Origin: an uncultured Fretibacterium sp.
GTDB taxonomy: Bacteria; Synergistota; Synergistia; Synergistales; Aminobacteriaceae
DNA length: 64,000 nucleotides
Assembly (NCBI GenBank): GCA_946183145.1
Contig: CAMGZM010000006.1
Span: 62,001-126,000 of the forward strand
Direction: 5' to 3'
Part shown: one piece after another, positions 30,677 to 39,996 of the stretch
Layout of the letters: the number at the start of each line of letters is the position of its first letter
Position numbering within the stretch: position 1 is the first letter of the stretch
Program-made: the position numbers and the translations under genes
Notes under the pieces: model-generated
Database searches by the model: none
Told to the model about the DNA's origin: nothing
Seen by the model: only the letters and a program-made list of their open reading frames with translations

Positions 30677-30751
30677 GCGGATGTAGTTCAACGGTAGAGC
30701 GTCAGCTTCCCAAGCTGAATGTTGCGGGTTCGAATCCCGTCATCCGCTCCA
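30677..30751 (+). tRNA. tRNA-Gly (CCC)
   Basis: Acceptor GCGGATG pairs with CATCCGC. Anticodon stem TCAGC/GCTGA encloses loop TTCCCAA, anticodon CCC. T-arm GGGTTCGAATCCC is standard. Discriminator T followed by encoded CCA (30749-30751). Confidence 0.95.
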
Positions 30752-30791
30752 TTATTCCAAATATACCATCAGACAAAGGACAGATATATTT

Positions 30792-32094
30792 ATGCAGGGA
30801 CAATTGATGTATGACTTTTGTGGCAAAATTTTCCCTCACTTCAGGAGTCTCACAGGAGAAGGAGTCCGCTCTACTCTCCATGAAATTCTCAGTAGTTTTA
30901 CGGTTGACGGGGGGGGGGGCAGAGATTTTTTCAGTTCCGTCAGGGACGAAAGTTTTTGACTGGACAGTCCCAAAGGAATGGCGAATCACTGAGGCGTATA
31001 TAGAGGACGAGAATCACACGCGCATTATTGACACCGCAAAGAATAATCTTCATGTCATGGGCTACTCGCTTCCCGTTGACGAATGGGTAGACCTTGAAGA
31101 ACTCAAGAAGCACATCTACACACAGCCCGATCAGCCTGACGTTATCCCCTACGTAACATCATACTACAAAGAAAGATTCGGCTTCTGCATGAGCCAGAAA
31201 CAGAAAGATTCCCTAAAGCCCGGAAAATATCACATGTTCATTGACAGCGAACTTTTTGACGGCGTACTGAACTATGCGGAGATCGTAATACCGGGAGAAT
31301 CTGACAGGGAAATATTTTTCTCAACATACATTTGTCATCCTTCAATGGCAAATAACGAATGCTCCGGCCCGGCGTTGGCTGTCGAGCTTTTGACGTACGT
31401 GAAGAATCTCAAGGCAAGACGATACACTTACCGCTTTATTTTTATCCCCGAAACAATCGGCTCAATAACATATCTCAGTCAGGGCGGCAATCTCGCTCAT
31501 CTCAAAGAGAAAATGACAGCGGGCTTCAATCTCTCGTGTGTCGGCGACAACAAAAATTACTCCATTGTCGAGTCACGTTACGGGAATACACTGGCTGACT
31601 CTGTGCTGAAGAATGTACTTCACTTTCACACGGGCGGTAATTATTCGTGCTACAGTTTCTTGCAGCGCGGCTCAGATGAAAGGCAGTACAACGCGCCGGG
31701 AATTGATCTTCCTGTTGTGTGTTTCTGCCGTTCAAAGTTCGGCGAATTTCCCGAATACCACACTTCAGCCGATAATATGTCGTTCGTCAGCCCCGAAGGC
31801 TTTCAGGGAAGCTATGACGTAATGACGAAAGTTATCAATGCTCTTGAGGCTAACAGAAAGTACAAAGTGAAAGTACTCGGCGAACCTCAGCTAGGCAGGC
31901 GCGGACTTTACCCGACAACGAGCCAGAAAGGAAGCTACGACGGCATAAGGGCATTGACGAATCTTATCGCGTATTCTGACGGAAATAATGACCTCATAGA
32001 CATAAGCAACAGAATCGGAGTCCCCGTTGACACTCTCATACCAATTTGTGAGACGCTCAGAGATAATAACCTTCTGGAGGCTGTGAATGAGTGA
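30792..32094 (+). CDS. DUF4910 aminopeptidase-like protein, frame broken at a G11 tract
   Basis: The conserved start (M-Y-D-F-C-G-K-I-F-P-H-F-R-S-L-T-G-E-G-V) is read from ATG 30792 or 30807, while the rest (V-P-S-G-T-K-V-F-D-W-T-V-P onwards) is in the +1 frame beyond the G11 run at 30909-30919. As written, translation stops at 30957-30959 after 55 residues; ten G would join a protein of about 433. The downstream part has M28-like zinc motifs (S-T-Y-I-C-H-P-S-M-A-N-N-E-C-S-G-P-A, I-P-E-T-I-G-S, E-Y-H-T-S-A-D-N) and a C-terminal winged-helix-like region, the DUF4910 layout common in surface-glycan loci. Its last 8 bases overlap the next gene. Phase-variable gene in the off state, or a homopolymer sequencing error. 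Confidence 0.82.
30909..30919 (+). repeat. Poly-G tract (G11) inside the DUF4910 gene
   Basis: Eleven consecutive G at 30909-30919. The next longest G run noted in the window is 7. A one-base loss or two-base gain restores the long reading frame. Confidence 0.95.
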
Positions 32095-32869
32095 GTATAT
32101 TCCGCTTCACGATTACGCCAAGGCAATGGGAGTCAGAAATGGCGATGTCGTTTTCATAAGCTCGGACGCGAAAATCATGCTTATGGACGCAATGACGAAT
32201 CACGCGGCTATAGATTTGAATCCGTTTATTGACGGGCTGATTGAGGCTGTTGGTTCTGAGGGTACGATTCTTTTTCCGACGTACAACTGGGATTTCTGTT
32301 CGGGAAAAACTTTCGACTATCTTAACACGCCGTGCATGACTGGTTCACTTGGTATTGCCGCGCTTAAAAGAAACGATTTCATACGCACGAAGCACCCGAT
32401 ATATTCATTCGCTGTTTACGGGAAGGACAAAGAATATCTTTCGGCCATGAGAAACACGGACTCTTTCGGCCTCGACTCGCCTTTCGCTTATCTCAGGGAG
32501 AAAAACGCCGTCAACTATGTCATTGATGTATCACTCATGCACAGTTTCACGTTTGTACATTTTGCGGAGGAACATTCCGGGGCAGTCAAGCATAGATTCA
32601 TCAAAAATTTTACGGCGGATTATGTTGACGAGTCCGGGAATTGCGAAAAGAGAACGTACTCAATGTTCGTCAGGGATCTCGATATGGATGTTCGCACGCT
32701 GATAGATCCGATTGAGGAAGATTTCACTGCGGGGGGAGCAGCAAGACGCTTCACGGTGAATCATTCAAGCATTCTGCGTGTTGAGCTGGGCAAAGCATAT
32801 CCGATACTCATTGATGACATACTCAACAACAACTCGCGCAAACTGTGCACGTTCAAAGGGCAAAATTGA
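32087..32869 (+). CDS. AAC(3)-family N-acetyltransferase
   Basis: 260 residues resembling aminoglycoside 3-N-acetyltransferases: G-D-V-V-F-I-S-S-D near the start, I-L-F-P-T-Y-N-W-D (~residue 60), a T-P-C-M-T-G-S-L-G-I-A loop and the late H-F-A-E-E-H-S-G-A. Beside DUF4910 genes this family usually belongs to surface-glycan synthesis, where it would acetylate an amino-sugar from acetyl-CoA; resistance is not implied. ATG 32087 overlaps the DUF4910 stop by 8 bases, so its translation may depend on ribosomes finishing the upstream frame and thus on the G tract. Confidence 0.8.
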   Translation: MSEYIPLHDYAKAMGVRNGDVVFISSDAKIMLMDAMTNHAAIDLNPFIDGLIEAVGSEGTILFPTYNWDFCSGKTFDYLNTPCMTGSLGIAALKRNDFIRTKHPIYSFAVYGKDKEYLSAMRNTDSFGLDSPFAYLREKNAVNYVIDVSLMHSFTFVHFAEEHSGAVKHRFIKNFTADYVDESGNCEKRTYSMFVRDLDMDVRTLIDPIEEDFTAGGAARRFTVNHSSILRVELGKAYPILIDDILNNNSRKLCTFKGQN

Positions 32870-32891
32870 AACCGTCAGCATAAAACTGGAA

Positions 32892-32921
32892 GGCTCTGTG
32901 TGAAAACGCAGGGTCTTTTTT
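32892..32921 (+). terminator. Intrinsic terminator
   Basis: 10-bp stem 32892-32901 with 32906-32915 (with G-U pairs), GAAA tetraloop, then T6. Closes the tRNA-Gly/DUF4910/acetyltransferase unit. Confidence 0.85.
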
Positions 32922-35307: not shown

Positions 35308-38300
35308 ATGCGTAGGAAGCTGTTGTGTTTTGTAATATTCTCCGTGCTTCTTCTAATGTCTGCTTCGTCTTTGTTAGCCTACAGTATCTTCATATTTGAT
35401 AATTTCAGCGGCACCCAATATGCCACCGTAGGAAAAACTTTCTCTTTGGATTTTGAAGCCAGTGTTTACGGAACATATGCCCGATCATGGACATTGAGCG
35501 GCTATGTACCCGGCTTAACATTCTGGAGCAGGGGAGAAGTCGCGCAGCTTTCAGGGGTACCTACTGTACCGGGATACTATAGTCTCACAGTAAAGGTATA
35601 TGGGGCAGACGGTAATCTGGATGGGAAGGCATTCTCAATAATCGTAAGAGAGGACAAGCCAGAAATCACAGGCACTCTTGATGAGGGGCTTGTCGGTGAG
35701 GAATACTCTTCTTCCCTGAAAGCAAGCGATGGCACCGCGCCTTACACATGGGCGATAACCAGCGGAGATTTACCGCCCGGCCTCGGTTTAAGCGTGTTAG
35801 GAGACAAGGCAGAACTCAAGGGGATTCCCACAAAGGGTGGCACATATTCCTTTGAGCTTACAGTTTCAGACTCAGCGGGCAAGACAGAAACAAAACAGTT
35901 TACGCTGCTTATACGCCCCGTTCTGATCGGAGGCACGCTTGGTGATGGACTCACAGCGGAAGAATATTCAGGCGATCTTTCTGTGAAGGGAGGCATCGCG
36001 CCTTTCTTGTGGGAAGTTTGCGAGGGAGCAATGCCGCCGGGTCTGTCTGTCATCAGCTCAGGGAACAGCGCGAAAATCTCCGGGACTCCTCCGCTCGAAT
36101 CCGAAGGGACGTACAAATTCACGCTGAGAGTTACGGATTCACAGGGCTGGCGGGACGAAAAGAAGTTCACCGTTGCCGTAAATACTCTGAGTATCACCGC
36201 TGAGTGGTTTGGGTATACACCGAAAAACGGTACGCCTCCTTATACATGGAAAATTATCGGGGGACACCTTGCGCACGGCATTTTGACTGTTTCAGGGGAC
36301 TCTGCTGTTATTTCATGCCCGGAATATTCCGAAGTGGCAGACGATATGCACTACACACTCAGCGTAACTGACAGCAAAGGCAGGACTGCGGAATACAATG
36401 GCCAATGCAAAACAAGCGAGAAGTCAGGGTTATATATATGGACGGATTCCTCCCTTCCGCAGATGGACTATTCTGTTTATTGGGCTAATTACAAAGACAC
36501 TAAGTATACATACAGATATTGGGAGTACAAAGAAAACATATATCTCCGCGGCGGAGTGCCTCCTTACACATGGTCTCTAGTGGCCGGAGAACTTCCTTAT
36601 CCGCTTGAATTTGTCTGGAGCAATACACACATAATATCAATTAAGGGTCATGAGCACCGAATTTTTGCGCCGTCAGGGAAGAGATACTACTTCATTCTGA
36701 AAGCTGTTGACTCATTAGGTACATCAGTCAGGAAAAAGTTCGAGATATTAAAGCAAGGATACTCCGATGGCCCATATCCATCTTTAGATGCTGTGGCGGA
36801 CTACACTGACCCGGTAATAAGCGGTGATTTTTCTGACGGCTATGCAGGAGCGGAATATTTCAGCTCAGTAACAGCTTTTGAGGGAATTCCGCCGTACACA
36901 TGGAGCATGGCGAGCGGCGAGATTCTTCCTTCCGGGTTAAAGCTGACGGCCTCAGACTTAGAAACGGGTACAGGGTCAGGAATGACGGGGAAATACGCTC
37001 ATGTCTCAGGAAAGCACAGCGCGAGCGGTGTTTCATACACTTTCAGGCTTAAAGTAACAGATTCTGAAGGCAACACAAACACAAAAGCGTTTCTTGTGAA
37101 ATTCTTCCAGAAGCCGACAATAACAGGTAAATTTTCCTCAGGTGCTGCCGGAAAAACTTACAGCGAAAACATAAAGGTATATGGCGGGATCGATTCGCCG
37201 GATTGTTCATTTACCGGGACTCTCCCAGCAGGTCTGGCACTGACAGCTTCAGGGGACAATCTCATACTCTCAGGGACTCCATCTCAGGCAGGGCAGTTCA
37301 AGTTCACCATCAAAGCCTCTAACAGCGCAGGGGAAGACTCAAAGGATTTCACAGTTGACATTGCGTCAGCCCCGGAAATTTCCCCCGCCGAACTCGGAAC
37401 AATCACGGCGGGAAGACCGTACACATACCAGCTGAAAGCGTCAGGAACAGCCCCGGTATTGTGGAATTGCGGAGAAGGACTCCCGGAGGGACTCATTCTC
37501 ATGACTTCAGGCATAATTTCAGGCTCGCCAGCTGCTGAAGGAAGCTATACTTTCACCGTTACGGCCTCGAATATTGCGGGAGCTGACTCGAAAGATTTCA
37601 CACTTAACGTTGTCGCACTCCCGGGAATTTCAGAGCTGAGTCCTGATTCGGCAGTCGCGGGACGGGAATATACATGCCAGATCACAGCCTCAGGCACAAC
37701 GCCTATAACATTCTCATGCGGCGGAGGGCTTCCGGAAGGTCTCACGTTCTCGGAAGACGGGCTTTTGTCTGGGACTCCTGTCAAGGATGGAATATATACT
37801 TTCACTGTTACAGCCTCAAATACTGCCGGGACTGTCTCGAAAGATTTTACTCTCAGTGTTTTTGCGCTCCCGGAAATTTCAACAGCAAGCCTCGATAACA
37901 CTTTTGCGGGCCAGGCGTATACTTTCCAGTTTGAAGCATCAGGCACAACACCTATAATATGGACTTGCACGGGAGATATTCCAGCGGGATTAACTTTCAG
38001 TGAAGCCGGACTGCTATCTGGGACTCCAGAGAAGATAGGAAATTATACCTTCAGCGTTACAGCCTCCAATGATGTCGGGATTGATACAAGAGAATTTACG
38101 CTGAGTATTTCTGAAATGCCAGTGAAGCCGGATATTTCAGCCTCAAATCTCGGTTCAGCGACAAAGGGACAGCCTTACGCATTCCAGTTTGAAGCATTCG
38201 GAACAGCTCCGATAACATGGACTTATGAAGGCTCTCTTCCGCAGGGACTCGCTTTGAGTGCTTTGGGACTTCTTTACGGCACGCCCACAAAAGGCGGGAA

Positions 38301-39996
38301 TTACACGATAACCGTTAAGGCTCTTAACAGTGTTGGAGATGATACAAAAAGTTTCACCCTGAATATTTTGGTGCCGCCGGAAATTTCGGACGCAAAACCC
38401 GGAGCAGCCACAGAAGGACAGCCCTACACATTCCAGTTTTCAGCTTCGGGAACTGACACAATAACGTGGACTCATACAGGCGATCTTCCCGAAGGACTCA
38501 CATTCAGCAATGCCGGCCTTCTTTCAGGCACTCCCGCAAAGGCTGGAAATTATACGTTCACTGTAACAGCGTCAAATACTGCCGGAACTGACACAAAAGA
38601 ATTTTCCCTTAATGTTGCTGAAAAACAGGAACAGCCCGAAATCACAACAGACTCCATCACGAACGCAGTCACGAATCAAGCATACTCGTTACAGCTAACA
38701 GCATCAGGCACAACTCCGCTCACATGGACGCACAAAGGCAATCTCCCGAAAGGACTCACGCTCGACTCTTCCGGCGTAATCTCAGGGACTCCCACAAAAG
38801 CGGGCAAGTATACATTCACCGTTACAGCGTCAAATACTTACGGCGAATCCTCGCAGAAATTTACGCTTCAGGTTTATGACCCCGTGAGCATCACAACATC
38901 AAGCCTCAAAGCCGGGACAATCGGCAAAAGCTATAACGTAACAATGAAGGCTAAAGGCTCAAAGGCTATAACATGGAGCGCAGAAGGACTCCCCAATGGA
39001 CTCACGATTAACGAGAAAGGGAAAATTTCCGGCAAGCCAACAGCACACGGAGATTTCACCGTCAAAATTACAGCCACAAACCCGGCAGGAAGCGTAACGG
39101 AAAGTTTGCAGCTCGAAATAAAAGGAATCGCACCGAAAATTTCAGGCTCTCTCACGAAAGCAACGCTCAACGAATCGTACTCTTCAGCCCTCAAAGTTAC
39201 AGGAAGCACGCCGCTTACATTAAGCATTGCGGGAAATTTGCCGGAAGGACTCACTTTCGACACTTCAACAGGAATTATCTCAGGCATTCCGACATCATAC
39301 GAGAGAAGCGGCTACAAGATCGTAATCACAGCATCAAATGACGAGAGCATAAAGTCGAAAAAAATTACGCTCATGGTTAAAGGCACTGCACCGAGAATCA
39401 CGACAGCAAAACTCCCTGAAGCTACAGTCAATCAGTCTTACTCGTTCACACTGAACGCAACAGGAAGCGAGCCGATAACTTTCACGGCTGAAAATCTCCC
39501 TGAAGGTCTCACGTTAAACAACGGCGTAATCTCAGGGAAACCAACAGAAGCCGCAAAATCATTCCGCATTGTGATTTACGCTGAAAACCCCGTTAAAACT
39601 GTCAGAAAATCTTTCACGCTCAAGATTAACGATGATAAAGATGATACAAAACTCCCTGTCGCAATGTCCAGCAATGAGAATACGAATCCCGCATTAACAG
39701 ATGAAGTTTTTGCGGGCGCAATTGCAGGAGAATATATATTCCCGCTCGGTGAAGTTTCCTGTGATGTTCCGGGCATGTATGATTTTTCGCTTGAACTGCC
39801 TGATTACGTCCCGGAAGATTCAGAACTCGTTTACGCCGCGAACTCTGAAAGCCCGTCTGATGATGATGACATTGCAGAATTTTTTGATGACACGGGAGAA
39901 GAGATTTCCGCCGTTCCTGAGAGCCGCAAGATTACCGTCTCAATCTGGCTCAATGAAGGAGTAATCTACAAGCCTGTTGTTGTCGTGAAGAAATGA
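35308..39996 (+). CDS. Giant exported protein with about 16 Ig-like repeats
   Basis: 1562 residues. Signal peptide at 1-24 (RRKLLCFVIFSVLLLMSASS). About 16 putative Ig (He_PIG-like) modules of 75-95 residues follow, with core S-A-G-x-x-Y, G-x-x-P-x-x-W, L-P-x-G-L and S-G-T-P. Modules 1-6 are diverged and carry P-P-Y-T-W; modules 8-13 (~nt 37370-38880) are much more alike. The last ~85 residues form a beta-rich module (F-F-D-D-T-G-E-E-I, V-P-E-S-R, Y-K-P-V-V-V-V-K-K) akin to a module in surface protein 1. No sorting tail, lipobox or membrane helix ends the protein, so it may be secreted or attach indirectly. AAAGGAG precedes ATG 35308. Adhesin or cell-surface fibre likely; ligand unknown. Confidence 0.82.
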   Translation: MRRKLLCFVIFSVLLLMSASSLLAYSIFIFDNFSGTQYATVGKTFSLDFEASVYGTYARSWTLSGYVPGLTFWSRGEVAQLSGVPTVPGYYSLTVKVYGADGNLDGKAFSIIVREDKPEITGTLDEGLVGEEYSSSLKASDGTAPYTWAITSGDLPPGLGLSVLGDKAELKGIPTKGGTYSFELTVSDSAGKTETKQFTLLIRPVLIGGTLGDGLTAEEYSGDLSVKGGIAPFLWEVCEGAMPPGLSVISSGNSAKISGTPPLESEGTYKFTLRVTDSQGWRDEKKFTVAVNTLSITAEWFGYTPKNGTPPYTWKIIGGHLAHGILTVSGDSAVISCPEYSEVADDMHYTLSVTDSKGRTAEYNGQCKTSEKSGLYIWTDSSLPQMDYSVYWANYKDTKYTYRYWEYKENIYLRGGVPPYTWSLVAGELPYPLEFVWSNTHIISIKGHEHRIFAPSGKRYYFILKAVDSLGTSVRKKFEILKQGYSDGPYPSLDAVADYTDPVISGDFSDGYAGAEYFSSVTAFEGIPPYTWSMASGEILPSGLKLTASDLETGTGSGMTGKYAHVSGKHSASGVSYTFRLKVTDSEGNTNTKAFLVKFFQKPTITGKFSSGAAGKTYSENIKVYGGIDSPDCSFTGTLPAGLALTASGDNLILSGTPSQAGQFKFTIKASNSAGEDSKDFTVDIASAPEISPAELGTITAGRPYTYQLKASGTAPVLWNCGEGLPEGLILMTSGIISGSPAAEGSYTFTVTASNIAGADSKDFTLNVVALPGISELSPDSAVAGREYTCQITASGTTPITFSCGGGLPEGLTFSEDGLLSGTPVKDGIYTFTVTASNTAGTVSKDFTLSVFALPEISTASLDNTFAGQAYTFQFEASGTTPIIWTCTGDIPAGLTFSEAGLLSGTPEKIGNYTFSVTASNDVGIDTREFTLSISEMPVKPDISASNLGSATKGQPYAFQFEAFGTAPITWTYEGSLPQGLALSALGLLYGTPTKGGNYTITVKALNSVGDDTKSFTLNILVPPEISDAKPGAATEGQPYTFQFSASGTDTITWTHTGDLPEGLTFSNAGLLSGTPAKAGNYTFTVTASNTAGTDTKEFSLNVAEKQEQPEITTDSITNAVTNQAYSLQLTASGTTPLTWTHKGNLPKGLTLDSSGVISGTPTKAGKYTFTVTASNTYGESSQKFTLQVYDPVSITTSSLKAGTIGKSYNVTMKAKGSKAITWSAEGLPNGLTINEKGKISGKPTAHGDFTVKITATNPAGSVTESLQLEIKGIAPKISGSLTKATLNESYSSALKVTGSTPLTLSIAGNLPEGLTFDTSTGIISGIPTSYERSGYKIVITASNDESIKSKKITLMVKGTAPRITTAKLPEATVNQSYSFTLNATGSEPITFTAENLPEGLTLNNGVISGKPTEAAKSFRIVIYAENPVKTVRKSFTLKINDDKDDTKLPVAMSSNENTNPALTDEVFAGAIAGEYIFPLGEVSCDVPGMYDFSLELPDYVPEDSELVYAANSESPSDDDDIAEFFDDTGEEISAVPESRKITVSIWLNEGVIYKPVVVVKK

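Follow-up and report, generated by a model that had tools for sequence, protein, structure and literature searches.

The locus described here raised the question of whether a gene interrupted by a run of guanines was decaying, misassembled or switched on and off by changes in the length of the run. Long homopolymeric G tracts drive slipped-strand on/off switching of surface genes in Campylobacter, Helicobacter and Neisseria, and a preliminary description of the locus, which lies in a 64,000-nt stretch of an uncultured Fretibacterium genome (the window), had proposed such a switch of a surface sugar modification. Slipped-strand switching was strongly supported by the enrichment of G tracts across the genome and the genus, by length differences between orthologous tracts, by their even distribution over reading frames and by tracts placed in promoter spacers. 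The support came from this setting of the tract in its genome and genus, and not from the locus alone. Taken together, the comparisons mark the G11 tract as a very probable slipped-strand switch for the phase variation of a putative sugar-modifying gene.

The DUF4910 gene is split between two reading frames at a G11 tract

The run was exactly 11 nt long on the forward strand and was the sole run of at least eight guanines in the whole window (Table 1). The DUF4910 frame opened at the ATG at 30792, read through 39 codons before entering the tract and, as assembled, ended at the TGA at 30957-30959 after 55 residues. The downstream frame was open to the TGA at 32092-32094, and the two frames would be joined at tract lengths of 1 mod 3 to encode a product of 433 aa. 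In profile searches the upstream frame matched positions 1-28 of the DUF4910 profile (E 2.5e-4), while the other frame matched positions 33-247 (Pfam, E 8e-84) and also contained DUF2172 and a C-terminal winged helix; the DUF4910 and DUF2172 domains spanned the whole joined protein. In an alignment with intact homologs, the frame changed at the tract, within a loop whose length varies naturally. These profile matches and the alignment confirmed the earlier claim that the N terminus and the rest of the protein lie in different frames on the two sides of the run, and translation of the window sequence returned the two product lengths given there (55 residues with 11 G, about 433 with 10 G). The idea that the tract had been carried in by an insertion within the gene was rejected because the loop length fell inside the range of the family and no inserted block was found.

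Table 1. Positions of the gene pair, the tract and the flanking features in the window.
Feature	Position	Strand	Basis or remark
tRNA-Gly (CCC)	30677..30751	+	ARAGORN; gene pair directly behind
Inserted segment of ~2.1 kb with DUF4910 and AAC(3)-type genes	30758..32887	.	Empty site in G041 and others; boundaries accurate to ~15 bp
5' part of DUF4910 gene	30792..30908	+	Sequence; DUF4910 profile 1-28
GTA-GTTT-TAC, exact match to GTA-N4-TAC, ending 7 nt before G11	30892..30901	+	Motif statistics
G11 tract, proposed slippage switch	30909..30919	+	Sequence, run statistics
Rest of DUF4910 gene (DUF4910 + DUF2172, M28-peptidase-like), other frame	30922..32094	+	Pfam; 3k9t E 3e-90
HTH_47, C-terminal winged-helix domain of DUF4910 protein	31861..32079	+	Pfam E 2e-22
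GGAGG, Shine-Dalgarno-like, for second gene, within end of first	32076..32080	+	Sequence
AAC(3)-fold N-acyltransferase-type gene (Antibiotic_NAT)	32087..32869	+	Pfam E 3e-23
Terminator-like hairpin	32888..32919	+	Directly after tRNA-Gly in relatives without insert

The start of the AAC(3)-type ORF at 32087 overlapped the end of the DUF4910 gene by 8 nt, the overlap that the preliminary description had reported. Translational coupling of the two genes is possible but not required, because the second carries its own GGAGG six nt 5' of its ATG. A role of this gene in aminoglycoside resistance was not supported, since it scored 31.7 bits against the cut-off of 270 of the NCBIfam resistance model and belongs to the broad fold family only. 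About 2.4 kb downstream, a protein of 1562 residues with ~13 putative Ig (He_PIG) repeats (35308-39996) is likely a large surface protein; the end of the neighbouring surface protein gave a sub-threshold Synerg-CTERM match (14.2 bits, cut-off 22.5), which points to Synergistota as the probable phylum.

Long G tracts are a trait of the genus

The genome of the window contained 33 runs of at least eight guanines. Runs of at least ten, counted within contigs, numbered 23, whereas a first-order Markov model of the whole 2.55-Mb genome predicted 0.6 (and 0.12 for runs of at least eleven). Run lengths in the fetched tract loci were bimodal, with a geometric fall to G7 (9 runs) and G8 (1 run) followed by 128 runs of G9-G14. 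Runs of at least nine guanines were present in all 43 congeners, at 2 to 59 per species, while most other genera of the phylum had 0-3 runs of at least ten, with few exceptions. The window tract is one of about 30 putative on/off tracts in its genome, and the trait marks the whole genus; it was unreported in the papers searched, and a search of the literature for phase variation in this phylum returned nothing relevant. Loss of mismatch repair, as far as its MutS1 part is concerned, was rejected as the cause of the tracts, because full-length MutS1 was encoded in the window genome and in most congeners. Three species of other genera in the phylum (G159, G076 and G096) carried 45, 24 and 18 runs of at least ten guanines. 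None of these runs matched the element described below, and as judged from sequence this set is a separate expansion.

The genes that carried tracts were mostly surface-polysaccharide genes. They included glycosyltransferases, LicD, cytidylyltransferases, polysaccharide pyruvyl transferase, FkbM methyltransferase, Caps_synth, MBOAT and O-antigen ligase; an amino-acid permease was hit as well. The permease tract lay near the 3' end of the gene in several species (L076 ~4963, L209 and L538, with G12, G10 and G18), where it would switch the C terminus and not turn the gene off. An HsdS-like gene (type I restriction specificity), so assigned by its sequence likeness only, had a G9 on the antisense strand in the window genome (L075; G000 C3 ~61028) and a G19 in the sister species G041 (L532), and the specificity of DNA methylation may therefore also be subject to phase variation. 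Between genes, a TTGACA-like hexamer on the opposite strand abutted 15 of the 52 tracts (~2 expected) and was perfect in nine (0.1 expected), and a TATAAT-like box was commonly found 16-21 nt from it, across the C run. Such intergenic tracts are, by prediction from these boxes, contingency loci of the promoter-spacer type.

A conserved element precedes many of the tracts

A pattern of the form TMMGTAAWWnTA recurred 5' of the tracts on the G strand, with its GTAA starting ~17 nt before the first G. The tracts examined came from seven of the 43 species and included some orthologous sites, and expectations were estimated at randomly chosen positions of these loci. The strict form GTA-N4-TAC was found within 26 nt upstream of 21.9% of 155 tracts, compared with 0.29% of random positions; with the looser GTA-N3-5-TRC, the end of the element lay mostly 6-7 nt from the G run. 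When one tract was taken per homology cluster, about 51 of 100 had TMMGTAAWW with one mismatch allowed (3.5 expected), so that shared ancestry of the tracts was rejected as the origin of the element. The share of tracts with the element differed between species (30/40 in G005, 3/20 in G002 and 12/27 in the window genome), a weaker mirror-image enrichment was present 3' of the tracts (28/147), and away from tracts the element occurred at about chance frequency. One set of tracts served both to find the motif and to count it; a scan of 188 genomes and the added tracts of G041 provided partly independent checks. In that scan the pattern was essentially confined to this genus, with almost no matches in the reversed control for singly counted orientations only. 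No matches were found at the tracts of the many-tract species G159 and G076 outside the genus, and none was seen in a handful of G tracts inspected in other bacteria. A scan of viral contigs gave 64 matches against 111 in the reversed control, and the full element was present in none. One viral contig (IMGVR_UViG_3300018479_000107, L314) carried G tracts (1331 and 2294) where several short tandem genes begin, which resemble one another and look like phase-variable appendage genes.

Inside genes, the G of GTAA fell in codon phase 0 in 13 cases and in phase 1 in 13 cases, but hardly ever in phase 2, in which the TAA would be read as a stop codon. A protein-level motif was rejected on these grounds, and the element is therefore a DNA signal. 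As to its role, we put forward tentatively that the tract is part of a dedicated element, made up of GTA-N4-TAC, a gap of usually 6-7 nt and G9-14, in which a factor bound to the quasi-palindrome might seed, maintain or destabilise the G run. The element could instead be nothing more than the -10 box of C-strand promoters, kept by selection for expression and unlinked to the tract. This would suit the 15 of 52 intergenic tracts with a TTGACA-like hexamer beyond the C run, where the TATAAT-like box overlapped the element or lay at it. However, the element was about as frequent in genic tracts, where no -35 was seen, as in intergenic ones (52/100 and 31/55), its best-kept letters were the outer GTA and TAC instead of the -10 core, and the equal use of two codon phases also spoke against a promoter box, which makes this explanation rather unlikely. 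Promoter function accounts for at most part of the intergenic elements.

Tract lengths and reading frames argue for a switch

The DUF4910/AAC(3) pair was absent from the sister species G041, and orthologous tracts elsewhere in the genome were compared instead. Six of seven pairs differed in length between the window genome and G041 (G11/G10, G11/G13, G9/G19, G9/G12, G11/G12 and G12/G18), and one was equal (11/11). The flanks of these orthologs were ~85-93% identical, and the 12/18 pair was set by the context of the permease gene. In more distant species, tracts were retained at orthologous sites with flanks down to 65-80% identity, which implied selection for the tract. The 75 tracts located inside genes, with gene boundaries set by ORF lengths and not by a gene finder, left the gene in frame in 23 cases, in the +1 frame in 27 and in the +2 frame in 25; these even thirds are the random distribution expected of a switch. 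At one further site a G12 in the sister species (L528) corresponded to GGGCAGAGGGGG in the window genome (L092), where the tract seems to be interrupted. Counted against a switch were the equal pair, the position of the DUF4910/AAC(3) pair outside any glycan cluster, and two tracts 5' of unexpected genes. One of these, a G11 (G10 in the sister species), lay 76 nt upstream of a gene of the IF-2B family (methylthioribose-1-phosphate isomerase-like; L068 ~4973), and the other, a G11 (G12 in the sister species), 83 nt upstream of a leuB-like gene (L093 ~10014). For phase variation both genes are odd targets, unless the true promoter is the one on the opposite strand.

An error of sequencing or assembly, with a true run of another length and a DUF4910 gene that is simply intact, was considered because homopolymers are error-prone and the window species is represented by a single assembly. 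Five of 50 contig ends lay within ~40 nt of a tract, a suggestive figure that fits heterogeneity of length among the reads but also poor sequencing of homopolymers. The recurrence of orthologous tracts with different lengths in separately assembled species and the even spread of genic tracts over three frames made such an error very unlikely, and even a true run of ten would be a G10 tract of the same class. Just as improbable was a decaying pseudogene in which the tract is a chance frameshift on the way out. The pair was recently acquired, stands outside a glycan cluster and is out of frame as assembled, which spoke for decay, but the 390 codons beyond the tract were open and conserved with the family motifs intact, there was no other lesion, the partner AAC(3)-type gene was intact, and the tract belonged to a genome-wide class with a common 5' element. 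It was barely plausible that programmed frameshifting at the G run, ribosomal or transcriptional, yields the full-length protein constitutively: a polymerase or a ribosome can be made to slip by long homopolymers and one shift would suffice for the full protein, but a programmed site would hold one frame relation, whereas the tracts showed all three, drifted in length between species and in one third of cases lay outside genes; frameshifting could accompany the switch at a low level.

The gene pair lies in an insertion between tRNA-Gly and its terminator

In the sister species, which is 96% identical to the window genome in a neighbouring gene, the site of the pair was empty (L490), with window position 30757 corresponding to 1122 and 32890 to 1134. 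Only a few bases separated the tRNA-Gly from the terminator there, the same short junction was present in other congeners, and the same tRNA-Gly directly preceded secG in relatives. No direct repeat of at least 9 nt was found at the ends of the inserted segment. Comparison with these empty sites indicates that the pair is a clean insertion of ~2.1 kb between the tRNA gene and its terminator. Among the 43 congeners, a trace of the DUF4910 gene was found in one other only, as a fragment near a contig end. The nearest proteins to the DUF4910 product were from Lachnospiraceae (72-74% identity) and full-length homologs in the same phylum reached at most 56%, which makes transfer of the pair between phyla likely.

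Among the 80 best homologs, an AAC(3)-type gene was a frequent neighbour, on either side, and none of the 80 had a run of at least seven guanines at the site of the tract; the homolog at L117 had a G10, but ~80 nt further upstream. Inheritance of the tract together with the gene was rejected on this basis, and the tract probably arose after the transfer, or else in an unsampled donor. The loci of DUF4910 homologs in Veillonellaceae, Lachnospiraceae and Gastranaerophilales (L117, L140, L173 and L108) had G9-G12 runs of their own nearby, without the full element, and are possible further phase-variable glycan loci in gut bacteria. A consensus scan found no promoter of its own just 5' of the DUF4910 gene, and the position of the pair between tRNA-Gly and terminator suggests that its transcripts may start at the tRNA promoter and read through into the two genes.

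Function of the pair and proposed mechanism

Most members of the DUF4910 family, though not all, sit in clusters for sugar biosynthesis or flagellar glycosylation, while the pair in the window stood apart from any such cluster, with tRNA-Gly on one side and secG on the other; seven flagellin-domain genes and a NeuB-type synthase were present elsewhere in the genome. The solved structure 3k9t, a putative peptidase, was a DUF4910/DUF2172 sequence relative over most of the window protein (E 3e-90), but the entry assigns no function and says nothing on switching. The closest parallel in arrangement was Cj1295 of C. jejuni, which, to judge from its published description and general knowledge, belongs to the same Pfam family. 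In strain NCTC 11168 it is described as an aminopeptidase-like protein of 435 aa with a 5' poly-G tract that is off at eight and on at nine (PMC3068675, PMC3025981). The G tract in the 5' part of Cj1295 switches the di-O-methylglyceroyl modification of flagellin pseudaminic acid, and the protein has been proposed to remove an N-acyl group from the sugar and so allow the attachment of another (PMC3068675). The adjoining Cj1296/7 is an aminoglycoside-N3'-acetyltransferase-type gene that is phase-variable through a tract of its own (PMC3068675, PMC3025981), and the window pair likewise has an AAC(3)-type neighbour. The window pair differs in belonging to another phylum, in lying outside a flagellar glycosylation locus, in having a tract in the first gene only and in the presence of GTA-N4-TAC. 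Since the tract is missing from the Lachnospiraceae proteins that are closest to the window protein, the two switches are apparently convergent. By analogy, the window pair fits the N-acyl exchange chemistry proposed for Cj1295, and a surface sugar is a plausible target. At the level of the genome, the tracts resembled the contingency loci of Campylobacter, Helicobacter and Neisseria in their length (poly-G of ~9-14), their number (~30 per genome), their frame and promoter-spacer types and their targets, which comprise surface-glycan genes and a restriction-specificity-like gene; they differed in the phylum and in the genus-specific conserved element 5' of the tracts.

The following mechanism is proposed. 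A two-gene cassette would have been gained horizontally, landing between tRNA-Gly and its terminator, where the tRNA promoter may drive its transcription, and would have acquired its tract within this lineage to join the ~30 contingency tracts of the genome. We infer that, in living cells, the G run would gain or lose Gs during replication. At lengths of 1 mod 3 the frames would be joined and the DUF4910 enzyme of 433 residues made (ON), while other lengths, including the assembled G11, would leave a short stub (OFF). The DUF4910 enzyme and the AAC(3)-fold acyltransferase would probably carry out an N-acyl exchange on a surface sugar, with a nonulosonic acid as the likeliest substrate, in line with the proposal for Cj1295.

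These findings extend simple-sequence phase variation, genome-wide, to a genus without such a report in the papers searched. They suggest that, in unrelated bacteria, gene pairs of one glycan-modifying kind were independently brought under the control of a G tract. In these genomes, many functional genes would be called pseudogenes by annotation pipelines. With the element beside the tracts, it becomes a testable question whether hypermutable tracts are passive repeats or owe their placement or control to a dedicated factor; if the latter is true, a dedicated element with a sequence-specific factor would constitute a directed hypermutation system for phase variation.
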